From positions 1 to 20,121 of the IMG/VR virus record IMGVR_UViG_3300027749_000559: 20,121 nt of DNA, one strand, 5' to 3'. A model generated the notes under the pieces. It had not been told where the DNA came from and ran no database searches. It saw nothing but the letters and a program-made list of their open reading frames with translations. This document shows, piece by piece, positions 3,373 to 17,906 of the stretch (position 1 is the stretch's first letter; each line of letters starts with the position of its first letter). This DNA comes from a virus. Made by a program: the position numbers and the translations under genes.

Positions 3373-3807
3373 TTAAGCGCGGGTTATCCCACGAGGGTCT
3401 TGCACAACACAGTCCACTTGGTCATCGTTGATGACACGGAACTCCTTACCAAATATCTTTACACGCGTACCGGAGTACGTACGTACCAAGACGAAGTCGC
3501 CTTCTTGACACCAAGGACCTGATGGGAACTTAGCGGTATCTTTGTACGCATCTGGTCCCATACGCATAACAAACAACACGGTTGTGCCGTGCTCTTCTTG
3601 GCGCATAGAAGCCGTATCTCGAATTAAATCGAGGTCTGTCCCAGCAATCTTCTCGTCTACGGGCGGAACCGCACATAAGAGTTTGTATCCTGTGGGAGTA
3701 GGAAGTGCTGAGGCTTTTGTTTCCTCTGACGCTTCCGGTTCTGGGGCATCCATTTGTTGGATGGTAGGCGGCACTAATATGCCGGGGGGTAGGAGTAGTT
3801 CACTCAT
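3373..3807 (-). CDS. GroES-like co-chaperonin (phage Cpn10)
   Basis: 144-aa protein with a GroES-type beta-barrel from about residue 38 to 140, after an unstructured Pro-rich N-terminal extension of about 35 residues. Visible matches to Cpn10 order are the first strand GYKLLCAVPPVDEKIAG, the strand VLFVMRMGPDAY (GroES: GEVLAVGNG region), EGDFVLVRTYSGTRVKIFG (GroES: VGDIVIFNDGYGVKSE) and the closing INDDQVDCVVQDP (GroES: SESDILAIVE). The segment between, about residues 57-75, would be the mobile loop that contacts GroEL. Phage co-chaperonins such as T4 gp31 and RB49 CocO replace host GroES so that GroEL folds the capsid protein. Its place inside the head operon fits that role. The start overlaps the preceding gene's end by 8 bases. 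Confidence 0.8.
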   Translation of the reverse strand: MSELLLPPGILVPPTIQQMDAPEPEASEETKASALPTPTGYKLLCAVPPVDEKIAGTDLDLIRDTASMRQEEHGTTVLFVMRMGPDAYKDTAKFPSGPWCQEGDFVLVRTYSGTRVKIFGKEFRVINDDQVDCVVQDPRGITRA

Positions 3808-3994
3808 CTATGTCTTCAACTTTCTTTGCAAGGTCGAGTAAGTAACCCTCTGCGATGGCTAGACCATGAATCACCCCACAGAGTTTTTGATATTGTTCAA
3901 ACGACTGGCAAGTACCTGCGGCTAGGTCATCTGCGTAGTTGTTCATATCAGTACGTATTTTTTCGCGCAATACGCGTGCGAAGTCTTGGATCAT
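3800..3994 (-). CDS. Small helical protein between portal and co-chaperonin (64 aa)
   Basis: 64-aa, mostly helical protein: MIQDFARVLREKIRTDMNNY, then CQSFEQYQKLCGVIHGLAIAEGYLLDLAKKVEDID. Its ATG shares bases with the portal stop codon (ATGA, 3991-3994), and its end overlaps the co-chaperonin start by 8 bases, so it is translationally locked into the head operon. Small helical proteins with this pattern (EQY..LCGVIHGL..AE..L.DL) occur next to portal genes in other tailed phages. I know of no assigned function. Coding status is well supported by the overlaps and composition. Confidence 0.8.
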   Translation of the reverse strand: MIQDFARVLREKIRTDMNNYADDLAAGTCQSFEQYQKLCGVIHGLAIAEGYLLDLAKKVEDIDE

Positions 3995-6462
3995 TTGTTA
4001 GTTTTACCCCTAGTTTGGTTTTGCATTTCTGCCCTGTGTTTGGCTACATCTATTCCTAAACGTAGCCCCTCTTGCTCTTGTTGCGCCGCTTGTTTGGCTT
4101 GGCTGTCTTTAATTTGTGCGCCAACTTTCAAGCCTGCGATTTGCTGTTCTCCGCTTACTTTCTTCTCATCTAACATGAGGCGTGCTTGTGCAAGCTGTGC
4201 GTCAGCTTGGGCTTTTTGCGCTTTAATTTGCACTTCTTGTTGTCTGACCTGCAACTCTTGTTGTTGCATTTGTAGCACTGGGTCTTGTGCATTTTGTTGG
4301 GCTTGCATCTGTGCGGCTTGGCCTTGGCTTTGCTGAAGCACTTGTTGTGCGGCTTGCGCCATCATGCCTGACAAGGCCAACTCAATCTCTGGTGGCAACT
4401 TCTCGTCTTCTGGGGGCAGTGGCATACCCAACTGCTGCTCGATCTTTTGGCGGTATGCGTAACCAACGTGCTCCGTAACGTGCGCCATGATAGCGGCTTG
4501 GATTCTTGCGGCGTTTGGACTTTGTCCTACCAACTGTTGCACGATCGGGTCTTGTAACAGGGACATGTGCACTTTAATATGCGCCTCATGGTCTTGGAAC
4601 AAGAACGCTTTAGCCGCACTACCTTTTAACAACGCCATGTTTTCGGACACGGGGTCTTTGGGCTTCTCGTCGTCTGGCAGTGGTATTAACTTATCTGGGT
4701 TTTTAATGCCCAGAACCTCAAGCATCCTGCGATGTAACTGCGGTAAGTCATAAATGTCCGGAGCCATCTGCGCCATCTGAATGACCGCTTGGTACTGCAC
4801 AACCCGCTGGCTCATAGTTGCCGCGTTGGGGTCGCTCACAGGAATAATGTCTACGTACGAATAGTCGCCTTGTTTAGCAGAGCGGCTACCAGAGTCTGGG
4901 TCATAGTCGTAGTCTGGGTCGGTATTGTCGCGGATGATGGTTGCAAGGAGCCCTAGTTCTTGTTTGAATGTGTAGTGCAAACGGGCTTGAACAGCCGTCA
5001 TCACCTTTAGCTGGCGCTCTAGGAGAGCCAACGTGGTGCCCACAGGAGCCTGTGCCGACATGTCGGACACTTTCATATCCGCTGTAGCCGCAAAGCGCCG
5101 GCCTTCTTCCACGATTTTGTCGAGGAGTCCAGCCAGTACCGCCGACGGTTCCTTATAGGGAAGGGGGAGGATATTCTCGCGCAGTGCGCCTGAACCAATA
5201 TCTACATCGCGGAACTCGCCGGGGGCGATCGGTGTGTCATCACCCTTAATGCGAAGTCCACGAGATTTAAGCCCACCGGGGAGGTTAGACAACGTGCCTG
5301 CGTCAACCAACTGCCGCATGATGCTTGTGGCTGATTTAGCAAACCCACCGATAAGGTGGAAGAGTCCGAAGCCGTAGGCTCCAAAGCCGGGAATGTATTG
5401 GTAGTGCACAAAGTGCTGGCGCTTGAGTCGTAGGTCATCTTCTTGTTTCCAATTGCGTCGGATGGCTAGTACTTCGTTTGTGCCTTTTATTAGGGTAACT
5501 ACGTATGGTAGTGCTATGCCCGTTTCTTCCCCGTCTTCATCTTTGTCTTCGTACCCCTTGATATCCAAGTCAGCATGCACTTCATACAACACATAACGGT
5601 CGTCGTTTAAGTCAGAAAATCCCGTTTCTTTATCTTTGGCTTTTTTGATGTCGTCTTGCGAAGCCTGCATGGGGTCAGGCAAATCCATTTCGCGGTAGAA
5701 CCCGACTTGTTGCAGTTTTAATATTTCGTTTTTGGTCTTACGCATGACGTGCGTCACGCGGTAGCAACTATCCATATCTGTCGCGCCATACGGCAAGATG
5801 ATGTCTTCTGCTGGGATAAACATCGAGACCTGACGTCCCAAGTTGGGATCATCGTAGACCTTCTTAAAGGCTGAACCTGTGGCTGGCAAACTCCACAACA
5901 TGCGTTCTTGTTCTGGGCGGAACTCCTTCATGACCTCAGTCAGTTCGTAGTTCATGTCGTTTTCAACACGTTGCGCGGCTTCTTTTTTCTCTGGCGTTTC
6001 TTTACCAATAATTTTGGTACGTACCGGTCCCTGCGCAGGGAACATCTCCGTGATTGTCTCGCTCTGGAAGCGTACCACAGCTTCTGTAATCATTGGATGG
6101 AACACGCCTGACGCGCCGTTCCAAGGTTCTGTACGCTCTTCATACTGGAGGCCAAGCAACTTCAAGCCCTGTGTGTAGGCTTTCTCCCAGTCCTTGCGGG
6201 AGTTCTTGTCGTTTTCAATATCGCCAACCAACTCGCTAGCAAACGAATCCATCGCGCTCTCATCCATCTCTTCCGCCAAGTTAGCGTTAAAGTCTTCTCC
6301 ATCTTCCTCGCCCGGCTTAATGCTGATGTCCAGATCACCTGCATGGATGTTGACTTCTTCGGGATCAATGATCTCAATCTCGAAATCATTTGGCTGGTCT
6401 TGCGCCAAGTCCTCAATACCTTGGGGTTGTGTGTATAGCGCTTTGTCGATATTGGTTGCCAT
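3991..6462 (-). CDS. Portal protein
   Basis: 823-aa portal (head-tail connector) protein, which would form the dodecameric ring for DNA passage. Size is at the upper end of the family, like the large portals of P22-type and other podovirus-like phages. Residues about 20-75 are an acidic extension. The core starts near SRKDWEKAYTQGLKLLG and has portal hallmarks such as EPWNGASGVFHPMITEAVVRFQ, FRPEQERMLWSLPATGSAFKK and the stem/wing region around GFGLFHLIGGFAKSATSIMRQL. From about residue 700 to the end it is a Gln/Ala-rich coiled coil (QQQELQVRQQEVQIKAQKAQ) reminiscent of the barrel helix of large portals. The gene starts 8 bases after terminase, with GAGGA upstream. Assignment is firm from motifs, size and location. 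Confidence 0.92.
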   Translation of the reverse strand: MATNIDKALYTQPQGIEDLAQDQPNDFEIEIIDPEEVNIHAGDLDISIKPGEEDGEDFNANLAEEMDESAMDSFASELVGDIENDKNSRKDWEKAYTQGLKLLGLQYEERTEPWNGASGVFHPMITEAVVRFQSETITEMFPAQGPVRTKIIGKETPEKKEAAQRVENDMNYELTEVMKEFRPEQERMLWSLPATGSAFKKVYDDPNLGRQVSMFIPAEDIILPYGATDMDSCYRVTHVMRKTKNEILKLQQVGFYREMDLPDPMQASQDDIKKAKDKETGFSDLNDDRYVLYEVHADLDIKGYEDKDEDGEETGIALPYVVTLIKGTNEVLAIRRNWKQEDDLRLKRQHFVHYQYIPGFGAYGFGLFHLIGGFAKSATSIMRQLVDAGTLSNLPGGLKSRGLRIKGDDTPIAPGEFRDVDIGSGALRENILPLPYKEPSAVLAGLLDKIVEEGRRFAATADMKVSDMSAQAPVGTTLALLERQLKVMTAVQARLHYTFKQELGLLATIIRDNTDPDYDYDPDSGSRSAKQGDYSYVDIIPVSDPNAATMSQRVVQYQAVIQMAQMAPDIYDLPQLHRRMLEVLGIKNPDKLIPLPDDEKPKDPVSENMALLKGSAAKAFLFQDHEAHIKVHMSLLQDPIVQQLVGQSPNAARIQAAIMAHVTEHVGYAYRQKIEQQLGMPLPPEDEKLPPEIELALSGMMAQAAQQVLQQSQGQAAQMQAQQNAQDPVLQMQQQELQVRQQEVQIKAQKAQADAQLAQARLMLDEKKVSGEQQIAGLKVGAQIKDSQAKQAAQQEQEGLRLGIDVAKHRAEMQNQTRGKTNK

Positions 6463-6470
6463 GTTGGTCC

Positions 6471-8006
6471 TCAGTAGTAAGCGTGTTGCTTACGTTTAAA
6501 AATTATTGGTTCATCTTTCTCGTCTGTGTCTAACGATATGAACCCGCCTTGTCTGAACCGCATCAGTGCTTGGGATGTAGTATCCACGAAGTCGTCATGC
6601 TCTCCAACTGGGAACGCCGCAACTTCCTCAATCACTTCACGCGCCCAGCGCGTATCCGGTGCCCATACCATGCCTGACGCAAATAAATCCGCAATCGCGT
6701 TCAATCGTACCATTTTGTCGTTGCCACGGCTAGGGTTTGTCTCCCACGCAGGGATACCCATCGCTCTAAACTCTTGTATAAGTGGCGCTCCCGCAGACTT
6801 CTTCTCCACAATAAACGCATCAGGCTCCCATTCTCTGTAATGCTTGAGCGCTGTAGCCTTTAACTCTGGGAATGTCATCCTGTCTTTAAACGCATCGAGC
6901 AAAATAATCTGCGCTTTGTGCCCTTCTTCCTCGTTGTAGAACACGCCCCACGTTGTGCATGCCGAATAGTCCGAGTTTGTCTTGACTTCGTGCGCCGTAT
7001 CCCATGACTGAATTACATAATCACATACTGGCGGCTCATCTGACTCCCATATACGCCACATTTTGCGAGAAATAACCGCGCTGTTGTCCGAAGTGGGCTG
7101 CTGCATGTACTGCGCGTTCCAATATCGGGGGTCAATACTGGCTTTGGTAGCCTTTAACGCTTGGAGTGCCCATTGTTCTGGCCATAACGACTTCTCGTTG
7201 TCCGTGCCCTCGTTCAATATGGCGGGTAACTCAACGATTTCCCACGGTACGGACTCAGGATTCTTAGTCTGGTAGTCAATTAGGCGTCCTGTAAGGTCAA
7301 GAAGCGACCAACGGGTCATGATTACGATGATTGCACCACCTGGCATCAAACGCTGCAAAGGGCCTGTTTGAAACCAAGACCAAGCTGTGTCAAATGCTAG
7401 ACGGCTGTTTACTTTAACGTCTTGTTCCGAATGCGGGTCATCAATAACGAATAGATCAGCGCCGCGCCCAGCAAGCGCTCCGCCGACACCTGCCGCGTAG
7501 TACTGTCCGCCGGCAGAGGTAGACCATTTTCCAGCGGCTTTTTGGTCGTCAGCCACATGCGTTGAGGGGAAGATTTCACGATACTCCTCCGTGTCGATCA
7601 AGTTACGAACTCTACGTCCAAAGTCTTCAGACAAACCTGCGGTGTGCGTACCCATGATAATCTTCTTATTAGGGTATTTACCTAGGAAGTATGCTGGAAA
7701 CAAGTAACTAGAGAACTCAGACTTACCCATACGCGGTGCAATATTAATAATCACACGCTTTTTCTTGCCTTCAATCACATCTTCAAATATTTTGGCTAAC
7801 TTCTTGTGTTGCGGTCCAACCTTAAAGCCCGGATACACATGCTTGGCAAAATCTAATATGTCTTCTCTGGCGTTATAGAGAGAGGAGCGGCGTTCGCGCT
7901 CCTCAAGCATGTCCATAAGCTCAATCTTTTCCTGCACTGTCATGTTAGGCAGCGCTAGTTGGAGTGCTTTTATTTCACTCGGGCTTAGGTTCAGCTTGGC
8001 TGTCAT
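6471..8006 (-). CDS. Terminase large subunit (packaging ATPase/nuclease)
   Basis: 511-aa DNA-packaging motor. The ATPase half shows Walker A APRMGKS at residues 90-96, Walker B LFVIDD at 185-190 and a coupling-type MTRW at 230-233. The RNase H-like nuclease half shows its three acidic positions in order: D336 in QSWDTA, E401 in IVEKKSAG and D471/D472 in GEHDDFVD. Length and domain order are complete. The start overlaps the end of the upstream small-subunit candidate by 32 bases and the portal follows after 8 bases, the normal packaging cassette. Headful (pac) versus cohesive-end mechanism cannot be decided from this sequence. Confidence 0.96.
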   Translation of the reverse strand: MTAKLNLSPSEIKALQLALPNMTVQEKIELMDMLEERERRSSLYNAREDILDFAKHVYPGFKVGPQHKKLAKIFEDVIEGKKKRVIINIAPRMGKSEFSSYLFPAYFLGKYPNKKIIMGTHTAGLSEDFGRRVRNLIDTEEYREIFPSTHVADDQKAAGKWSTSAGGQYYAAGVGGALAGRGADLFVIDDPHSEQDVKVNSRLAFDTAWSWFQTGPLQRLMPGGAIIVIMTRWSLLDLTGRLIDYQTKNPESVPWEIVELPAILNEGTDNEKSLWPEQWALQALKATKASIDPRYWNAQYMQQPTSDNSAVISRKMWRIWESDEPPVCDYVIQSWDTAHEVKTNSDYSACTTWGVFYNEEEGHKAQIILLDAFKDRMTFPELKATALKHYREWEPDAFIVEKKSAGAPLIQEFRAMGIPAWETNPSRGNDKMVRLNAIADLFASGMVWAPDTRWAREVIEEVAAFPVGEHDDFVDTTSQALMRFRQGGFISLDTDEKDEPIIFKRKQHAYY

Positions 8007-8601
8007 GCGTATTTACTTCATCCACTTGCTTTACATCTTCGACCTGCTTTACATCTTCTACGTCGACTACTCCCATGAACTTGTTTAGCTTTTCCTTGAT
8101 CTTTTTGTCAATCTCTGAGTCTGACATGTCCGCCTTCTTAATCTCCACCCGTTCCGTAAACAGTGCCACTTCCGTGATGCGTCCCAGCATGTCTAATGCT
8201 TTAAGTCTCACTCTGGCGTCTGGGTGATTTGTCTCCTCCAGAATTTTGGCTACCGCCATACCGCGTAAATGTTTAGCTTGTTCAACAAACTCCCAGTCAT
8301 ACGCAGCCAGCATCGCTACTAAATGCCTTACTGCCTCTGGGGTCTTTATTTGGGTGAGTTGGTGTTTTGTTTCTGCAACAGGCGTATTAGTTGAAAGTGC
8401 AGTAAATACTTTTTGCGCTGCTTTGGCGTTGGCTTCCTTGAGCGCCTTGTCATCGTCGTCTACGCCTAGCTTCTCTAGCCATGCCGTGGTATTTACTTGG
8501 GCATTGAGTGTTTGCTCCGGAGAAACTTTATCCAGAGGGATGGCCGCCTTCGCCTTGTGCTCTTGCACAGGGGGTTCAAAATCAATCAAATGTTCGAGCA
8601 T
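7975..8601 (-). CDS. Probable terminase small subunit
   Basis: 208-aa, mainly helical charged protein, first gene of the leftward operon. The segment about residues 85-155 (TPEAVRHLVAMLAAYDWEFVEQAKHLRGMAVA..., then NHPDARVRLKALDMLGRITEV) resembles the helical DNA-recognition and oligomerisation core of phage small terminases, whose role is to bind packaging sites and hand DNA to the large subunit. The acidic C-terminal tail has a duplicated hexapeptide VEDVKQ-VEDVKQ. It overlaps TerL by 32 bases. AGGTG precedes the ATG by about 5 bases, a moderate site. No catalytic motif is expected. The name comes mainly from position and helical character. Confidence 0.65.
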   Translation of the reverse strand: MLEHLIDFEPPVQEHKAKAAIPLDKVSPEQTLNAQVNTTAWLEKLGVDDDDKALKEANAKAAQKVFTALSTNTPVAETKHQLTQIKTPEAVRHLVAMLAAYDWEFVEQAKHLRGMAVAKILEETNHPDARVRLKALDMLGRITEVALFTERVEIKKADMSDSEIDKKIKEKLNKFMGVVDVEDVKQVEDVKQVDEVNTHDSQAEPKPE

Positions 8602-8622: not shown

Positions 8623-8651
8623 TTGCGTTCCCGATTGGGCTGAAGTATACT
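8623..8651 (+). promoter_or_regulatory. Rightward sigma70-like promoter overlapping the leftward one
   Basis: TTGCGT (8623-8628), a 17-base spacer and TATACT (8646-8651), predicting a start near 8658. The -10 overlaps the leftward -10 on the palindrome AGTATACT, so polymerase could occupy only one direction at a time. The only unit downstream before a strong terminator is the short RNA candidate. Confidence 0.55.
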
Positions 8652-8671
8652 ACTTTCTAGTAGGTGTGCAA
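8644..8671 (-). promoter_or_regulatory. Leftward sigma70-like promoter for the head operon
   Basis: On the minus strand TTGCAC (8671-8666), a 16-base spacer and TATACT (8649-8644) form a good sigma70 match. Transcription would start near 8637 and give a leader of about 36 bases before the terminase small-subunit ATG at 8601. No better promoter lies closer to that gene. The -10 is half of the palindrome AGTATACT shared with the rightward promoter. Confidence 0.6.
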
Positions 8672-8745
8672 GCAGTTGCGCATTTGCTTCTCCTGATGGA
8701 TGAAACCATCTTAAGCCCCCTGTGGAAACACCGGGGGCTTTTTTT
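8658..8745 (+). ncRNA. Candidate small RNA with exposed anti-Shine-Dalgarno stretch
   Basis: Predicted transcript of about 88 nt from the rightward promoter to the terminator at 8713-8745. It lacks a plausible reading frame. Foldable elements are AAGCA/TGCTT (stem bases around 8670-8689), GATGG-ATGAAA-CCATC (8695-8710) and the terminator hairpin. Between the first two lies CTCCT (8690-8694). The stretch TTCTCCTGATG is the exact complement of CATCAGGAGAA, present before the genes at 9924 and 11548, and TTCTCCTGAT pairs with the site before 12079. An RNA that pairs with several ribosome-binding sites is therefore possible. A competing reading is that the minus strand has a ribosome-binding site and an 8-codon leader ORF here. 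RNA existence is inferred. Confidence 0.45.
8713..8745 (+). terminator. Strong rightward rho-independent terminator
   Basis: AAGCCCCC (8713-8720) pairs perfectly with GGGGGCTT (8733-8740), with an inner GTG/CAC pairing around a GAAA tetraloop, followed by a seven-T run (8739-8745). Orientation is plus: the T-run is only at the plus 3' side. It would end RNA from the promoter at 8623-8651 and protect downstream genes from antisense read-through out of the head region. Confidence 0.88.
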
Positions 8746-8955
8746 ATCTAGGGGTGTCTAGAGTTAGACAGGGTATTGCTGGATTTTTTATAAAATTTAT
8801 GGGGTGCGGTATTTAGTACTACAGAAAAGTGAAATGTGGTTACGAAACAGTGTTCATGTCCATGCCAATGACGGCATCGTATAAGGGGTGATGGGGGTAG
8901 GGTGGGGTCTAAAGGATACAGATTGTGTCCCTGAGTAATACCAAATACTCCGTCA

Positions 8956-8999: not shown

Positions 9000-9019
9000 A
9001 TGGGGAGGTTTCTCCCCAT
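9000..9019 (+). repeat. GGGGAG hairpin, copy 1
   Basis: ATGGGGAG-GTTT-CTCCCCAT, an 8-bp perfect stem with a tetraloop, followed by TTTGT. It lies in the leader of the gene at 9056, 22 bases before its AATCAGGAG ribosome-binding site. First of six near-identical intergenic hairpins on this strand. Confidence 0.85.
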
Positions 9020-9055
9020 TTGTATTTCTATCATTCATTCAATCAGGAGTTAATC

Positions 9056-9514
9056 ATGCTAGTTTCACACAATACTTTTTTCCACAAACTCGGTGGCTCT
9101 GACCGCCTTACGCTCGAAGCGAGCAAGCCTTTGCACGATGCCTACACCAAGGCTACGCCCGAACAACAAAAGGACTTGTTCTCTCGTGCCGTGTTCAACT
9201 ACACGCTTGGCAACATGGGCTTTGATGAGACTGATGCCAAGGGTATCAAGACTGTCGAGGGCATCATCGCCAAGACACGCACAGCACGCACCAAGGAGCA
9301 AGAACGCATTGTCAACAGTGCGGGTCAAAAGGCACGCTATCACTTGGTCAATCGTGGCAAGCCGATGCCCGCTAAGAAAGCATCGAGTGGCAAGCAACAC
9401 TTCACAGTCGAGCAACGCCACGCCGTTGACAACGCTTTGGCTTCCTTTGAAGCCGAGACACTTGCGGAGCAAGTCAAGATGCTTCGTGCTTACTTGGCTA
9501 CTTTGGAAGTTTGA
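9056..9514 (+). CDS. Hypothetical protein, first gene of the rightward region (152 aa)
   Basis: 152-aa soluble protein. I chose the ATG at 9056 because CAGGAG lies 8 bases upstream; an upstream in-frame ATG at 9020 has no ribosome-binding site and would lie against the leader hairpin. The sequence is helical and Lys/Ala-rich: LTLEASKPLHDAYTKATPEQQKD, then an Arg/Lys-rich segment (about residues 75-110, TARTKEQERIVNSAGQKARY) and a C-terminal helix VEQRHAVDNALASFEAETL. The basic middle could bind nucleic acid, but no named domain is recognised. Behind the extended -10 promoter it is likely expressed early. Function unknown. Confidence 0.85.
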   Translation: MLVSHNTFFHKLGGSDRLTLEASKPLHDAYTKATPEQQKDLFSRAVFNYTLGNMGFDETDAKGIKTVEGIIAKTRTARTKEQERIVNSAGQKARYHLVNRGKPMPAKKASSGKQHFTVEQRHAVDNALASFEAETLAEQVKMLRAYLATLEV

Positions 9515-9535
9515 TTGGGGAGATTTCTCCCCGAT
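9514..9535 (+). repeat. GGGGAG hairpin, copy 2
   Basis: ATTGGGGAG-ATTT-CTCCCCGAT begins within the stop codon of the preceding gene. A 9-bp stem including one G-U pair and a four-base loop. A separate terminator-like hairpin follows at 9543-9580. Confidence 0.85.
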
Positions 9536-9904: not shown

Positions 9905-9923
9905 TTTTCATCAGGAGAAAATC

Positions 9924-10103
9924 ATGAAAGCAGCAGTCATCATCTCTCACATGGCACTGGCGCAAATGCTCGTGCTATCCACTCTCGTGGGCATCTTTGC
10001 ACTACAAGACCAAGGCGGGTATCTCTCCATGTTCTTGTGTGTCGCTTCACCCTTTGTTCTCGGTCTTCAAATCATGTTCATCGTCAGTTCATTCAAGGAG
10101 TAA
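9924..10103 (+). CDS. Small membrane protein (59 aa, two hydrophobic segments)
   Basis: 59-aa protein with two membrane-spanning stretches: about residues 4-26 (AVIISHMALAQMLVLSTLVG) and about 35-54 (MFLCVASPFVLGLQIMFIV), joined by a short polar turn QDQGG. The ATG is preceded by CATCAGGAG at ideal spacing. The gene is a separate cassette behind the double hairpin at 9866-9904. Two-span phage microproteins include holins, superinfection-exclusion proteins and other envelope modifiers; nothing here chooses between them, and no lysis genes lie next to it. Confidence 0.75.
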   Translation: MKAAVIISHMALAQMLVLSTLVGIFALQDQGGYLSMFLCVASPFVLGLQIMFIVSSFKE

Positions 10104-10347: not shown

Positions 10348-10363
10348 GGGGAGATTCCTCCCC
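10348..10363 (+). repeat. GGGGAG hairpin, copy 4
   Basis: GGGGAG-ATTC-CTCCCC, followed by ATTTGTTATTTCT, 5 bases after the stop codon at 10342. It opens the 403-base gene-free region. Confidence 0.82.
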
Positions 10364-11475: not shown

Positions 11476-11547
11476 AAAAGTGTTCGGCAGTTTCGTTGGG
11501 CTATGCCGTGCACCATCCCGTTAGTAGCCCACATCAGGAGAAATGAA

Positions 11548-11787
11548 ATGTTAAGAGTAATCGTAGTTCTTGAGTTCAATGGCATCAACGATGCCGATAG
11601 TGAGAAAGCCAGCAACATCACAGACAGCATCACCGATGAGTGTCTGATTCTGCAACACGAGTTGGGTGCGGATGCTTGCTATGTCGATGATGTAGTAGTG
11701 GAGATAGAAGAGGAAGAAGAGACATACGACGAGTTCGGTGTCAACACCAAGAACAGTTTCAACACACCACCAAAGGAAGAAGCATGA
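11548..11787 (+). CDS. Small acidic protein, paralogue of the 15362 gene (79 aa)
   Basis: 79-aa protein starting MLRVIVVLEFNGINDADSE. The ATG at 11548 has CATCAGGAG at good spacing; an ATG at 11543 is out of frame, and in-frame upstream codons reach back into the leader stem. The first 53 residues align without gaps to the 55-aa protein at 15362: RVIVVLEFNGINDADSEKAS against KVIVSFEFENIKDPNSPEAT, and CYVDDVVVEI against CWVDDCVISF. The beta-strand, long-helix, beta-strand pattern suggests a small alpha/beta fold. An acidic tail EEEEETYDEF and a polar end are extra relative to the paralogue. Its stop overlaps the next ATG. Function unknown. Confidence 0.82.
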   Translation: MLRVIVVLEFNGINDADSEKASNITDSITDECLILQHELGADACYVDDVVVEIEEEEETYDEFGVNTKNSFNTPPKEEA

Positions 11788-12038: not shown

Positions 12039-12054
12039 GGGGAGGAATCTCCCC
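12039..12054 (+). repeat. GGGGAG hairpin, copy 6
   Basis: GGGGAG-GAAT-CTCCCC, followed by ATTCATTCAATCAGGAG. The loop differs (GAAT) while the stem is unchanged. The 17 bases downstream, including the ribosome-binding site, recur in the leader of the 9056 gene, so hairpin and site behave as one duplicated leader module. Confidence 0.85.
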
Positions 12055-12078
12055 ATTCATTCAATCAGGAGAATCAAA

Positions 12079-13800
12079 ATGAAATTATTCTTTGTCACTT
12101 ATCGTGATGTCAATTCAAACTTTTCGCGTGCAATCGTTGGTCAAATCGGCACTAAGTATGCAGTCGCTCGTATCTTTGCAGGTGTTCAGCACAGTGTGTT
12201 CAGTGAGGCTATGTTCGCAACCTCTCGTTACTCTCGTAACTATGAGACACGCTCTCGTGCCATTCTTGGTGCTCGGCATATCGAAGATGTCCTCAATATT
12301 ATTGACGATGTAACTGAGGTGCACATAGCACCGATGACTGCGTATCAACGCAAAATCATCAAGACCTTTGGGCGTGTGATGTATCGAGAGATGCTTAATT
12401 CGTTCTACATGGTGTCCGATACCGTTAGTCAAAACAGAGTCTACTCACGCTTGGTCAACGAGTATTACAGCACCGATACCAAGCAGGGGTATTTCCAATG
12501 GCGTGGCTGTTCTGTGTATCCCAACAAATACAAACAGGTGCGTCAGTTATATGCTGACCTCGGCAAGTTAGTTGCTCAAGCGGTTCACGATGGCGATACT
12601 AGCCCAGTCGCTGAGTTCATCATGAACGAGTGCACTGGCTCAGGTGTCGACAACATAGCGTTGTATCAGAAGATTAGTGAGGTGCTTGAACTAGACATCA
12701 CGCACTGCGACTGCGGGCATCTTGAACACAACGACAACACGCATGAGGTTGGGCGTCGTAACTCTGACACATGGTGTGACAACTGCTTCTCTGAGGACGC
12801 TGTGTATGTTGAGAATCGTGACGAGTATTGGTCACGAGACGATGCGTATTACCACGAGAGCGATGGCTGTTACTACTCGTATGAGGAAGAAGACGAGTAT
12901 GACGATGATGACGACAGCGACCAAGACAGCGATATGCTCATGTCTTACAGCACCAATGTGCTCAACTTCTTATCCAAGGACACCACCATCAACTCTTCTC
13001 CGCATGGCGAGTTCCTCATGGGTATTGAGTTCGAGATGGAGACCAAGGAGGGTTGCTCAGTCAATGCTGCGGTGTCCGATGTGCGTAGCCAACTCGGTGA
13101 GGAGTATTGCGTGTGTAAGTCAGACGGCTCGCTTGGCTCGTATGGCTTGGAGATTGTGACTGCGCCCCGTGGTCTTGCCGAGCACATCAAACGCTTCAAG
13201 AGTTGGGAGGTTGACTCGAGCTATCGTGCGTGGGATACCAAGCGTTGCGGTCTTCATGTGCACATCGACTCTCATGCGTTCACGCAGATGACTCTCGGCA
13301 AGTTTCTTATGCTTATCAACAGCGAGAGCAATGTCGAGTTCATACGCAAGATTGCAGGTCGCCATCCCAACACCGATGACCAAGCCCGTAGTTACTGTGC
13401 GTCTGAGCATCAGTCCATCCTCGTCAACCCCAAGAAGGCAGTCAAGGACAAGTCGCATGAACGCTATCGCATGGTCAATCTACAGAACCTCGGTTGCAAG
13501 GAGTCCAAGCGTCTGACTGGTATGTCCGCATACGAGGGCAAGTATGACACTGTCGAGTTGCGTATCTTCCGTGCGTCTCTCAACAAGCCTCGTATGTTGG
13601 CGCAGATTGAGTTCACTCATGCGTGTGTCAACTTCTGTCGTGTCGCATCGTGGCGTGACTTGAACCAAGTCAGCTTCGTCAAGTGGCTCAAGACTGTATC
13701 GAGTCTGTATCCCAACCTTGCCGATTGGTATGGCGTGCGTCGTCGCAACACCAAGGTTACTGCTGAGTCGCAATGTCGTGACACAGTTGAGTCAGTTTAA
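12079..13800 (+). CDS. Amidoligase-like enzyme (carboxylate-amine ligase family)
   Basis: 573-aa protein whose C-terminal half matches the COOH-NH2 ligase superfamily known as Amidoligase_2 (glutamine synthetase/GCS-like fold), which joins a carboxylate to an amine using ATP. Visible signature elements in order are GIEFEME (G315-E321, metal/ATP-binding acidic strand), DGSLGSYGLEIVTAP, CGLHVHID (H393, H395, D397) and VELRIFRAS (E493, R495, R498). The N-terminal 200 residues are unassigned. Residues 210-236 form a likely zinc-binding cluster (C210, C212, H214 or H217, C233, C236), followed by a Tyr/Asp/Glu-rich segment (about 245-290). AATCAGGAG precedes the start. The class II amidotransferase lies 27 bases downstream, so glutamine-derived ammonia or a glutamine-linked step is plausible. 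Substrate unknown. Confidence 0.75.
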   Translation: MKLFFVTYRDVNSNFSRAIVGQIGTKYAVARIFAGVQHSVFSEAMFATSRYSRNYETRSRAILGARHIEDVLNIIDDVTEVHIAPMTAYQRKIIKTFGRVMYREMLNSFYMVSDTVSQNRVYSRLVNEYYSTDTKQGYFQWRGCSVYPNKYKQVRQLYADLGKLVAQAVHDGDTSPVAEFIMNECTGSGVDNIALYQKISEVLELDITHCDCGHLEHNDNTHEVGRRNSDTWCDNCFSEDAVYVENRDEYWSRDDAYYHESDGCYYSYEEEDEYDDDDDSDQDSDMLMSYSTNVLNFLSKDTTINSSPHGEFLMGIEFEMETKEGCSVNAAVSDVRSQLGEEYCVCKSDGSLGSYGLEIVTAPRGLAEHIKRFKSWEVDSSYRAWDTKRCGLHVHIDSHAFTQMTLGKFLMLINSESNVEFIRKIAGRHPNTDDQARSYCASEHQSILVNPKKAVKDKSHERYRMVNLQNLGCKESKRLTGMSAYEGKYDTVELRIFRASLNKPRMLAQIEFTHACVNFCRVASWRDLNQVSFVKWLKTVSSLYPNLADWYGVRRRNTKVTAESQCRDTVESV

Positions 13801-13827
13801 TTTTTACAATCATCAGGAGTATTTAAT

Positions 13828-14910
13828 ATGTGTTTAATCATTACAGGTCAGTCATCCAAAGTTCGTTCAACATTACTCAACACCAAGGGTATGCTCAACG
13901 AGATTTATTCATCCAACCCCGATGGCATCGGCATCATGTATTCAACAGCCAAGGGGCTCAAGGTCGTCAAGACATTGCCTAAGAACATCAACGATGCCAA
14001 TGCGTTCATCACCAAGTTACCCACAGATGACCGCGAGATTGCTATCCACTTCCGTTGGACTACGCATGGCGACACCGACTTAATCAACTGCCATCCATAC
14101 GATGTCGTTACTGGCTATGTGGCGATGATGCACAACGGCGTGTTGCATACAGGCAATGACGCTGACAAGACCAAGTCCGACACATGGCACTTCATCAATG
14201 ACTATCTCAAGGAGGCGGTGCATGACGCACCCAATCTCGTGCATACCAAGGGCTTCTTGACTATGCTCGCTGACTTCATCGGTGACAACCGCTTCGTGTT
14301 CATGGATGGTGAGGGGCGTATGTCTCATGTCAACTATGACCAAGGCATCGAGCACGATGGGCTATGGTTCAGCAACACCTATGCGTGGAAGCCCGCGACT
14401 CTCATACCCAACTACTACACGTCCACCAAGCATTACAACTATGCCAACTACAACAAGGCATTCAACAACTACATGGACGACGACGAGTATGAGATGGAAG
14501 CATGGAACAACTCATGGGCGAGCAAGCCCTTGCGTGCATCCGCACACAGCGCAGATTGGAAGGACGATGACTATGAAGACGCTGTGACTATGGACGATAT
14601 GTGTGGTGCACTCAGCGAGTGCGATGTCGATACAGTGGAGTCTTACCTTGAGACATTCCCTATCACATTCATCAACACTATCTTCGGCGAGATGTCGCCT
14701 GTAGCCACACGACACACAACCATCAAAGACTTACCAAGTTATGAGCAAGACATCTACAAAGCGCTGCTTGACTGTGACCTCGCTGCGTTGCATGACTTCG
14801 TGCGTGATGGTAAGTCGGCGTCTCTCGTGGCGGAGGTGATGTGCTTCTATATAGATTGGTATGCCAAGATGGAAGAGCCTACCCGCCCTCTGTTGCCAGC
14901 CATGCTGTAA
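13828..14910 (+). CDS. Class II glutamine amidotransferase-like protein (Ntn hydrolase)
   Basis: 360-aa protein. The N-terminus MCLIITGQSS places Cys2 first after Met removal, as the catalytic nucleophile of class II glutaminases requires. Further family elements follow in order: FRWTTHG (R76-G81), CHPYD (88-92), MMHNGVL with the oxyanion-hole N103-G104, and SDTWHF with D118 in the place of the conserved glutamine-binding Asp. These residues predict hydrolysis of glutamine or use of an N-terminal nucleophile. Residues from about 200 onward (Tyr/Asn/Asp-rich, then helical) are not part of the core and may bind a partner. CATCAGGAG precedes the ATG. The amidoligase gene lies directly upstream, a pairing known in phages and predicted operons for peptide or amide modification. 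Confidence 0.8.
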   Translation: MCLIITGQSSKVRSTLLNTKGMLNEIYSSNPDGIGIMYSTAKGLKVVKTLPKNINDANAFITKLPTDDREIAIHFRWTTHGDTDLINCHPYDVVTGYVAMMHNGVLHTGNDADKTKSDTWHFINDYLKEAVHDAPNLVHTKGFLTMLADFIGDNRFVFMDGEGRMSHVNYDQGIEHDGLWFSNTYAWKPATLIPNYYTSTKHYNYANYNKAFNNYMDDDEYEMEAWNNSWASKPLRASAHSADWKDDDYEDAVTMDDMCGALSECDVDTVESYLETFPITFINTIFGEMSPVATRHTTIKDLPSYEQDIYKALLDCDLAALHDFVRDGKSASLVAEVMCFYIDWYAKMEEPTRPLLPAML

Positions 14911-14970: not shown

Positions 14971-15081
14971 ATGAAAAATGCAATGAATGAAGGTATAGCA
15001 CCGTGGCACGAATTGCAATCGGTATTTATTGATGACTGGGATTTGTATAACTATTGGTTGTGCATAGCAACCATGCCATGA
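14971..15081 (+). CDS. Duplicated microprotein, copy 1 (36 aa)
   Basis: 36-aa peptide starting MKNAMNEGIAPWHELQSVFI and ending CIATMP, with a Trp/Tyr/Asp-rich middle (DDWDLYNYWL). AAAGGAGAAG lies at good spacing. No membrane segment and no known motif. It follows the amidoligase/amidotransferase pair and the terminator-like hairpin. An identical copy follows at once, so dosage or tandem duplication by recombination is suggested. Whether it is a peptide substrate for the upstream enzymes is speculation. Confidence 0.68.
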   Translation: MKNAMNEGIAPWHELQSVFIDDWDLYNYWLCIATMP

Positions 15082-15094
15082 AAGGAGAAAGCAA

Positions 15095-15205
15095 ATGAAA
15101 AATGCAATGAATGAAGGTATAGCACCGTGGCACGAATTGCAATCGGTATTTATTGATGACTGGGATTTGTATAACTATTGGTTGTGCATAGCAACCATGC
15201 CATGA
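15095..15205 (+). CDS. Duplicated microprotein, copy 2 (36 aa)
   Basis: Identical in DNA and protein to the gene at 14971, with AAAGGAGAAAGC as its ribosome-binding site, 13 bases after the first copy's stop. The absence of even a silent difference means the duplication is recent, kept identical by recombination, or an assembly artefact. The downstream gene follows after another 13 bases with the same leader. Confidence 0.66.
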   Translation: MKNAMNEGIAPWHELQSVFIDDWDLYNYWLCIATMP

Positions 15206-16972: not shown

Positions 16973-17274
16973 CAGACAAGACATACAACGGATGGACTAA
17001 CTACGCCACATGGCGTGTGAACCTAGAGATTTTTGATGGGCATCAACTGTCGGATTTTCCGTTCGATCAAGGTGCGTCTGCTGACGCTGAACTCATAGAC
17101 CCGTATGAGTTATCGCTTGCACTACAAAACTATGTGGAGGACTACATCTACGAGGCGGGAGGTGGCGAGAACAACATCGCTGTGTCATACGCACTTGCGT
17201 TCTTATCCGATGTGAATTGGTTTGAGATTGCAGGGCACATGATTGAAGACGCTATCGAGGAGAGTAGCCACTAA
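16969..17274 (+). CDS. Conserved phage protein of the NGWTNYATW type (101 aa)
   Basis: 101-aa protein with the N-terminal signature YNGWTNYATWRVNLEIFDG, which I recognise from a widespread small phage/plasmid protein family of unknown function (probably the one catalogued as DUF7249; the number should be confirmed). The rest is acidic and helical, ending IAGHMIEDAIEESSH. ATGA overlap with the preceding gene; TTGGAGAAAC lies upstream. Last gene before the promoter at 17287-17315. Role unknown. Confidence 0.82.
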   Translation: MTDKTYNGWTNYATWRVNLEIFDGHQLSDFPFDQGASADAELIDPYELSLALQNYVEDYIYEAGGGENNIAVSYALAFLSDVNWFEIAGHMIEDAIEESSH

Positions 17275-17286
17275 CTTGTCTATCGT

Positions 17287-17315
17287 TTGACAGAAAGTGA
17301 GATTCGAGATATGCT
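17287..17315 (+). promoter_or_regulatory. Near-consensus sigma70 promoter
   Basis: TTGACA (17287-17292), a 17-base spacer and TATGCT (17310-17315). The -35 is perfect and the -10 has four of six consensus bases. Start predicted near 17322, only about 15 bases before the ATG at 17337, so the leader is very short but includes the AAGGAGAGG site. It sits in the only real gap of the small-gene string. Confidence 0.7.
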
Positions 17316-17336
17316 TAACACACAAGGAGAGGCATC

Positions 17337-17906
17337 ATGCCAGATATGAAAACTGCACTATCAACAGTTCTTAATCAATGGGAACAAGACGAACAAAAAC
17401 AAATCACACAACAACAGGAGAAGCCCGTGGGCAAACAACTATTTAAAGCCACTAACAATGTGACACGCGAGACTTTCAACTACATCAGAGACAACCCCAA
17501 CAAGACCACCGCAGAGGTGGCGCAAGCCTTAGAGCAACGCGGGTTCAAGGAAGGCTCAGTCACATCCATCTGTGCTCAGATGTCCAAGCAAGGCATGGTT
17601 ACGAAGGACATATATACAAAGCGTTTGGTGGCGATAGTGCCTGAGTATCAGCCACTGAAAGCGGCATCAGCGTTCAAAACGGAGAAACCCACCGCTAAGG
17701 TAGTAAAAATAACCAAGCGCCCGCAACCACAGAATGCTCCGCAAGACGCGGGCATTGCCGCTATTGCCCCGAAAGAAGAAGCCGTGCGCAAAGCAGCACT
17801 GGTATTCTTGAACGCAGACTTTGACCCGAACGACTTACTAAACAAACTCTCTGTTGTGCAAGCCCGTGCGTTGTATGACGCACTCAAACAAATCTTTGGA
17901 GGTTAA
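17337..17906 (+). CDS. Winged-helix-like DNA-binding protein (189 aa)
   Basis: 189-aa protein. Residues about 42-105 have a winged-helix pattern: helix ETFNYIRDNP, turn, helix TTAEVAQALEQRGFKEG, recognition helix SVTSICAQMSKQGMV and a wing ending LVAIVPEY. The flanks are flexible: a Gln-rich N-terminus (KQITQQQEKPVGKQ) and a Lys/Pro/Ala linker (about 108-150). A short C-terminal helical domain (LSVVQARALYDALKQIF) may mediate oligomers. Such proteins act as transcriptional regulators or replication accessory proteins. Its own strong promoter and short leader fit a regulator. AAGGAGAGG precedes the ATG. Confidence 0.78.
   Translation: MPDMKTALSTVLNQWEQDEQKQITQQQEKPVGKQLFKATNNVTRETFNYIRDNPNKTTAEVAQALEQRGFKEGSVTSICAQMSKQGMVTKDIYTKRLVAIVPEYQPLKAASAFKTEKPTAKVVKITKRPQPQNAPQDAGIAAIAPKEEAVRKAALVFLNADFDPNDLLNKLSVVQARALYDALKQIFGG

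Follow-up and report, generated by a model that had tools for sequence, protein, structure and literature searches.

A candidate small RNA in uncultured phages with a seed that covaries with translation initiation regions of distant phage genes

Results

The window, i.e. the whole stretch of 20,121 nt analysed here (positions 1 to 20,121 of the IMG/VR record IMGVR_UViG_3300027749_000559), contains a divergent gap between a leftward gene for a 208-aa protein (7975-8601, minus strand), which adjoins terL, and a rightward gene starting at 9056. A sequence-only reading had placed in this gap a promoter-terminator unit of about 88 nt with a CTCCT between two predicted stems, and both points are borne out by the sequence and its predicted fold. 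Indeed, the plus strand reads as a small RNA (sRNA) gene of 89 nt, made of a promoter, a first stem, an unpaired UCUCCU, a second stem and a terminator (Table 1). The predicted fold has an energy of -42.1 kcal/mol (z -6.0), equalled by none of 200 shuffles. A generic consensus scan of the window missed both the terminator and the promoter, the latter because its -35 fits the consensus at only 3 of 6 bases. The window matched no Rfam family, and 11 related loci compared with Rfam 15 gave only three tRNA matches; for the sRNA itself no family reached its gathering cut-off, the hits being weak and below threshold (e.g. Spot_42, 17.6 bits against 80). For the 208-aa protein, neither Pfam nor PHROG gave a hit and none of 50,697 phage records a match, and we do not claim it as a small terminase.

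Table 1. Features of the sRNA locus and complementary leaders in the window
Feature	Position	Strand	Details and basis
sRNA promoter	8623-8651	+	-35 TTGCGT 8623-8628, 17-nt spacer, -10 TATACT 8646-8651; sequence
Putative sRNA gene, 89 nt	8657-8745	+	5' end deduced from the -10, 3' end from the T run
Stem I, 13 pairs	8659-8688	+	predicted fold
Seed TCTCCT, predicted unpaired	8689-8694	+	complement of the Shine-Dalgarno core AGGAGA; between stems I and II
Stem II, GATGG/CCATC	8695-8710	+	predicted fold
Intrinsic terminator	8713-8745	+	stem 8713-8740; seven T 8739-8745
Possible target leader before gene 9056	9042-9058	+	ATCAGGAG, 8 nt; complementarity only
Possible target leader before gene 9924	9909-9926	+	CATCAGGAGAA, 11 nt, site 9909-9919; complementarity only
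Possible target leader before gene 11548	11532-11550	+	CATCAGGAGAA, 11 nt, site 11532-11542; complementarity only
Supported target leader, group C, before amidoligase-like gene 12079-13800	12063-12081	+	ATCAGGAGAA, 10 nt; swap test, hold-out
Supported target leader, group A, before gene 13828-14910	13811-13830	+	CATCAGGAG, 9 nt; swap test, hold-out
Ribosome-binding-site-like string and 8-codon frame	8657-8698	-	CATCAGGAGAA 8688-8698, frame 8657-8683; peptide not conserved

A contig of 61,887 bases (L001 in the locus series, G001 in the genome series) aligns to the whole window in two blocks at 99.9% and served as the source for the remainder of its genome. The two blocks overlap by 140 bases in G001 (30948-31087) and by 17 in the window (about 15081-15097); the window seems to carry a stretch of about 120 bases once more than G001, perhaps as a tandem repeat.

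Relatives of the locus were sought through the 208-aa protein, relatives of which are encoded in 235 viral contigs of IMG/VR. Among the best 80 of these 235, the unit lies upstream of the 208-aa gene, on the opposite strand, in all 77 that were evaluable, the contigs of L003, L068 and L071 ending inside or just before it. It is likewise found at 58 of the 60 terL loci (out of 78) that had 1.5 kb upstream, L008 and L011 being left out of this count; the pattern search saw no unit at the other two, L126 and L142. The same was true of two MAG contigs, L356 (with only 912 bases before terL) and L357, of the distant relative DSL-LC04, searched whole, and of 11-kb parts of HTVC023P, HTVC027P and MinM2. 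A host scan of genome contigs returned two MAG contigs only, with terL identities of 55% (Rhodocyclaceae) and 71% (Chitinophagales), and these two terL-bearing contigs are possibly misbinned. Phage_integrase was not found in 16 contigs.

A combined pattern of promoter, core and T run matched exactly once in each of 27 long contigs (34-68 kb, picked for having a 208-aa relative, six of them fetched in part) and nowhere in 4.48 Mb of block-shuffled sequence. When core and terminator were searched alone, at least 119 stretches were retrieved, some on contigs already met; among the matches listed, a -10 precedes 114 of the 118 examined, and in 101 of these it is accompanied by a TTG at -35 with a 17-nt spacer. 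The 181 distinct units carry as -10 TACACT (115), TATACT (52), TATATT (7) or TATAGT (7), within a search pattern that admits only TA[CT]A[CGT]T. The TTG at -35 is set off by 17 nt in 156 of them and by 16-18 nt in 173. The T run reaches at least six in 177 of the 181, where the pattern itself requires five, and seven in 123, a length compatible with an Hfq-dependent sRNA.

Directly past the terminator, the window holds a palindrome-like sequence, TGTCTAGAGTTAGACA (8755-8770), and a similar palindrome, GTCYAn[CA][GA]TTRGAC, lies at most 120 nt downstream in 32 of 171 distinct units. Such an element could be an operator or belong to a divergent promoter. At two other loci, tRNA genes stand on the opposite strand directly past the terminator (L016, 5782-5854; L037, 357-540).

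We compared the structures of 185 distinct versions of the RNA (63-131 nt), each folded separately, stem by stem. Plain MAFFT alignments of 30 and 16 sRNAs yielded no usable consensus (0 and 7 pairs), because the stem lengths vary. Three stems surround the core in 178 of the 185 folds. Stem I is built from 34 distinct outer 5-pair helices in 178 RNAs, and its arms still pair at 73% when swapped between phages; for stem II the figures are 61 distinct 5-pair helices in 166 RNAs and 55%, and for the third stem 27 distinct 5-pair helices, with standard pairing lowered to 0.72 by the swap. As a phage's own helix pairs at 100% by construction, the informative values are the number of distinct helices and the result of the arm swap. 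By this comparison of predicted folds, the stems are rebuilt with different sequences from phage to phage, i.e. they compensate. The TCTCC is fully unpaired in 144 of the 185 predicted folds, and at least four of its bases are unpaired in 179.

In the window, the mismatch-free complementary sites that had been pointed out before the genes at 9056, 9924, 11548, 12079 and 13828 are present as stated. A conserved segment of the sRNA, CAUUGCUUCUCCU, is complementary to an entire initiation region, comprising Shine-Dalgarno (SD) sequence, spacer and AUG. The 3' arm of stem I (CATTTGC) is complementary to the spacer and start codon of some targets, and the 5' arm of stem II, again in some targets, to the bases that immediately precede the SD. 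Nine leftward genes of the window match the sRNA by 4-6 nt only. Sites like CATCAGGAGAA, with at most two mismatches, occur 11 times (one being the sRNA complement itself) against 5.3 expected, a number attained by one of 100 shuffles. Taken alone, the window thus shows leader complementarity only modestly above chance, and a CUCC will pair with any SD. Genes 9056 and 12079 have leaders (9032-9056 and 12054-12076) that are 92% alike and share CATTCAATCAGGAG, as though one cassette had received a copy of the other's leader.

Ten long contigs, later 27, were collected for comparison between lineages; after near relatives had been left out, 24 served for ranking and 20 for the swap test. Motif counts gave a mixed picture, own and foreign sRNAs not being clearly separated. 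By duplex energy in ten phages, the own sRNA ranked 1 to 14 of 22 for the mean over all genes and 1 to 16 for the ten best leaders. The swap test uses a cruder but sharper statistic, the longest exact match of each leader with its own sRNA or with those of other lineages, the score being in both cases the best among all the candidate start codons; the ORFs were listed from all six frames, and overlapping frames that do not correspond to genes are among them. This statistic was adopted after the motif and energy results had been seen and the helicase had been noticed, and the hold-out set described below therefore matters.

Among 158 ortholog groups present in at least 7 of 24 genomes, the seven with the best match to their own sRNA are, in order, F, A, C, E, B, D and H. 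The same seven are those reaching p<0.01 in the swap test on 153 groups from 20 phages, against about 1.5 expected. Their own match exceeds the foreign one by +0.97 to +2.90 nt, the mean over all groups being 0.10 (sd 0.51): A (gene 13828), +2.90 nt, p 0.0014, n 7; B, +2.73, p 0.001, n 8; C (gene 12079), +2.67, p 0.003, n 6; D (the helicase), +1.75, p 0.0002, n 18; E, +1.71, p 0.001, n 7; F, +1.23, p 0.0014, n 19; and H, +0.97, p 0.008, n 19. An eighth group, G, gave +1.18 nt (p 0.022, n 8). Over the 89 genes of groups A-H, G included, the match averages 9.37 nt with the own and 7.46 nt with foreign sRNAs (z 7.7), these groups having been chosen on the same 20 phages as were tested. Two phages, G003 and G032, show no preference for their own sRNA. 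Matches of at least 10 nt are found in 65 of 988 orthologous ORFs on the sRNA strand versus 1 of 1,096 on the other, both sets including target groups and overlapping frames.

The hold-out comprised 181 loci with a seed 29-mer absent from the 27 contigs, with 111 distinct seeds and 60 target genes. It covers groups A, B, C and G, as D, E, F and H had only one or two loci each. The preference recurs in A (p 0.011, n 11), B (p 0.0001, n 21) and C (p 0.0001, n 13), and pooling the 60 genes of these three groups and G gives z 8.0. Group G was not confirmed (p 0.35, n 15) and was dropped as a target. The permutation treats lineages as independent, which makes these p values optimistic; collapsing related seeds is a partial remedy. 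With discovery and hold-out merged and related seeds collapsed, significance is kept by B (0.0001, n 9), C (0.0027, n 6), D (0.0010, n 12), F (0.0011, n 14) and H (0.020, n 13), and not by A (0.093, n 6), E (0.17, n 3) or G (0.14, n 8). The covariation of the core with leader sites in related phages, which had been put forward as a check on the sRNA, is thus positive, in the held-out A, B and C as well.

The bases before the SD track stem II of the sRNA: they read CATCAGGAG in group A of G001, CATCAAGGAG in group A of G053, CTCAAGGAG in groups A, C and E of G028, AACTGAGGAG in groups B and G of G044 and AACTAGGA in group A of G005. Since stem II is re-paired between lineages, its arm, its counter-arm and the target leaders change together.

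As to the genes concerned, group C carries Amidoligase_2 (Pfam PF12224), group D SNF2 and helicase domains, and group H an SprT-like domain; group F is a 135-aa gene behind the helicase with DUF7307 (Pam3 gp33-like). Groups A, B and E gave no Pfam hit. In G001, groups A, C, D, F and H all lie rightward of the sRNA and on its strand, D, F and H beyond the window and further right in its genome; B and E are found in relatives. From their strand and content, these genes would be early ones. The helicase leader illustrates the matching. It reads GAGAAGCAAATG in G001, G002 and G009, the sRNAs of which read CATTTGCTTCTC; GAGAAGCAATG in G007, with CATTGCTTCTC in the sRNA; and GGAGAAAGCATG in G008 and G010, with CATGCTTTCTCC (G001 representing the CATTTGCTTCTCCTGATG type of sRNA and G008 the CATGCTTTCTCCTCTC type). 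Ranked among the 1,813-2,746 starts of each genome, that of the helicase takes first place, alone or tied, in 5 of 8 phages; it comes second in G003 (in a nine-way tie) and G010, and 205th in G006. No sRNA match was seen in the helicase leaders of G006, G027, G029 and G032, and only a partial one in G033 and G028; when single best sites are considered, the helicase leaders of G003 and G006 do not fit their own sRNA.

Discussion

Comparison among these phages makes a strong case, at the level of sequence, for a conserved and structured RNA unit matched lineage by lineage to its targets. Several features expected of a trans-acting base-pairing sRNA are apparent: the unit has what reads as its own promoter and terminator, its conserved seed is predicted to be exposed in most folds, and its imperfect complementarity to distant mRNAs seems to coevolve with them, apart from group G, where this fails, and groups A and E, where it loses significance once related seeds are collapsed. 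We consider it probable that a phage-encoded sRNA, some 89 nt long, base-pairs in trans with the initiation regions of rightward mRNAs and turns this set of genes down. The earlier suggestion that one RNA could dampen several genes together is supported by the covariation, that of the held-out groups A, B and C included.

On the biochemical side, we infer from the same comparison a course of events that would run as follows. The sRNA would be transcribed by the host RNA polymerase from its own sigma-70-like promoter and end at the intrinsic terminator. Its unpaired UCUCCU would pair, together with the 3' arm of stem I, towards the AUG of the target or, together with the 5' arm of stem II, towards the bases upstream of its SD. 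Such pairing would hit in trans the initiation regions of several rightward phage mRNAs, taken as early: those of A (13828) and C (12079) in the window, those of D, F and H further right in the same genome and, in relatives, those of B and, less surely, E. Occupation of the SD and start codon would compete with the ribosome and block its entry, resulting in repression, and Hfq may help pairing or stability, with which the seven-T tail is compatible. As the sRNA rises, the early genes would be lowered together and the leftward structural genes would escape, giving an early-to-late timing. The effect could instead be activation or RNA decay.

Several alternatives have to be weighed, and three of them concern the locus itself. 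On the minus strand the conserved stretch is AGGAGAAGCAATG, an RBS-like string, and its conservation could reflect a ribosome-binding site serving a leader peptide that precedes the 208-aa gene and terL; the minus-strand site and its 8-codon frame, MRNCLHTY, had been noted in the sequence-only reading and are there as described. Of 52 distinct upstream regions, 45 have an ATG shortly after AGGAGA, and in the L072-L080 group the frame behind the seed complement runs open and in frame into the 208-aa gene, the protein of which may start earlier there. Open frames also lead from within the sRNA complement into the 208-aa gene in G007 (3549-4200) and G006 (17106-17814), as artefacts or N-terminal extensions. 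However, the peptide varies from 2 to 32 codons and lies in different frames among relatives, and the ATG is missing in 7 of the 52 regions (L016, L036, L050, L054, L061, L063 and L078), where -10, core and T run are kept. Moreover, the T run suits the plus strand only, and this strand folds better than the minus strand in 181 of the 185 distinct RNAs. A minus-strand frame conserved in relatives that lack the plus-strand promoter and terminator had been named as evidence against the sRNA; the opposite was found, the unit being present in 77 of 77 relatives and the peptide not conserved. We regard the leader peptide as a very unlikely reason for the conservation. It is also highly unlikely that the terminator belongs to an attenuator, ending a leader from which transcription would, under some condition, continue into gene 9056: it is strong and lies 310 bases before this rightward gene, but opposite-strand tRNA genes directly follow it in some relatives (L016 and L037), and the covariation with distant leaders would be left without explanation. 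The same covariation is left aside if the RNA acts as an antisense in cis and silences the leader of the packaging operon that runs leftward (208-aa gene and terL). This presumes a packaging mRNA starting to the right of the sRNA and hence overlapping it. The sRNA is indeed divergent from the 208-aa gene throughout the evaluable relatives (77 of 77, among the best 80 of 235), and transcripts from the minus-strand tRNA genes of L016 and L037 may cross it; yet full complementarity holds for any sequence and needs no conserved seed. We find cis-antisense action quite unlikely as the main function, and it may occur in addition to the action in trans.

The other two alternatives deal with the matches themselves. 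There could be no specific regulation at all: CUCC is able to pair with any RBS, and the sRNA complement may just happen to carry an RBS style common to related phages. In favour of this, outside the target groups, 647 other genes with a GGAG leader prefer their own sRNA by +0.19 nt (p 0.0002), as do 252 others with AGGAGA, by +0.48 nt (p 0.0001), which may reflect further targets or a weak shared style. The leader GGAGAAAGC also recurs 12 times in G008 and 14 times in G010, the sRNA complement included. Nevertheless, the effect in the 89 target-group genes (+1.91 nt) is about ten and four times larger than in these two controls, the 12 other strong-SD ortholog groups range from -0.32 to +0.63 nt with none below p 0.11, the held-out A, B and C follow their own sRNA, and the other strand almost never matches. 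A shared style is therefore, in our view, an improbable explanation for the whole of the effect. It is similarly improbable that the sRNA acts mainly on host mRNAs and that the phage matches are secondary; this would have a precedent in lambda PreS, which is described as targeting host dnaN (PMC12197685), but the seed tracks the phage's own genes lineage by lineage. Trans pairing with a set of phage initiation regions is the reading that we retain.

Bacterial sRNAs of the Hfq type carry an exposed C/U-rich seed, complementary to the SD, between stems, and a terminator with a long U tail. The window sRNA resembles them in the seed between stems and in the U tail, and differs from them in that it reaches no Rfam family's gathering score. 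In the part of the literature consulted, phage sRNAs are presented singly, and several of them come from temperate phages that infect model hosts (PMC12197685). VpdS of phage VP882 and PreS of lambda are phage-encoded and bind Hfq, and VpdS influences both phage and host mRNAs (PMC12197685). The sRNA described here would likewise be phage-encoded; as far as these descriptions go, they concern single temperate phages, whereas we deal with a family from many phages with putative targets in their own genomes. P22 sar, which interferes with translation initiation of ant, and lambda OOP, which acts on cII, are antisense phage RNAs pairing with a phage mRNA, as is predicted here (PMC12197685). Each is described as acting on one phage gene, whereas the window sRNA is predicted to reach several distant genes through a short seed. 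The present sRNA would thus be a phage-encoded trans-acting sRNA set apart by a putative multi-gene regulon and coevolving flanks.

The closest functional likeness may be with RegA of T4, a protein of 122 aa that competes with the ribosome at about 30 mRNA initiation regions, at sites overlapping or adjoining the AUG (PMC3014915). Both would be a single phage factor acting at many initiation regions, a likeness that is functional only, the factor here being an RNA and not a protein. According to the text consulted of a 2010 review, T4 had at that time yielded no small trans-acting regulatory RNA with a characterized function (PMC3014915). We lean, by a little, towards regarding the sRNA as an RNA counterpart of RegA, in which one sRNA shuts down the translation of a set of early genes (the helicase module and the amidoligase cassette) by pairing at and near their SD and start codon, the arms of its two flanking stems have a double role as structure and tunable seed, stem, seed and several target leaders are retuned together, and the sRNA is fixed in a phage group without a detected tyrosine integrase. 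If true, this would be a post-transcriptional early-to-late switch made of RNA. In the open-access PMC literature (most subscription papers and bioRxiv being outside this scope) we found no description of the sRNA family. Comparison alone delivers here a family across many uncultured phages, with putative targets and a testable rule of allele matching, and the 111 distinct seeds of the hold-out loci alone constitute a natural experiment in the coevolution of an sRNA with its targets.

Two further observations concern the rightward part of the window. Inside a MarR-like gene (17337-17906), a possible internal start at 17427 follows ACAGGAGAAGCC, a 10-nt match to the sRNA, and this internal start (27836 in G002) is among the top duplex-energy sites of G001 and G002; a shorter product of the gene might be a target. 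The MarR-like gene as such was tried as a target and set aside, being strong in G005 and not significant as a group (+0.24, p 0.26). Five similar hairpins of the form GGGGAG-N-CTCCCC, which may be terminators, processing sites or repeats, occur at 9002-9017, 9517-9532, 10348-10363, 11460 and 14928; the first three lie in the gaps that separate small rightward genes.
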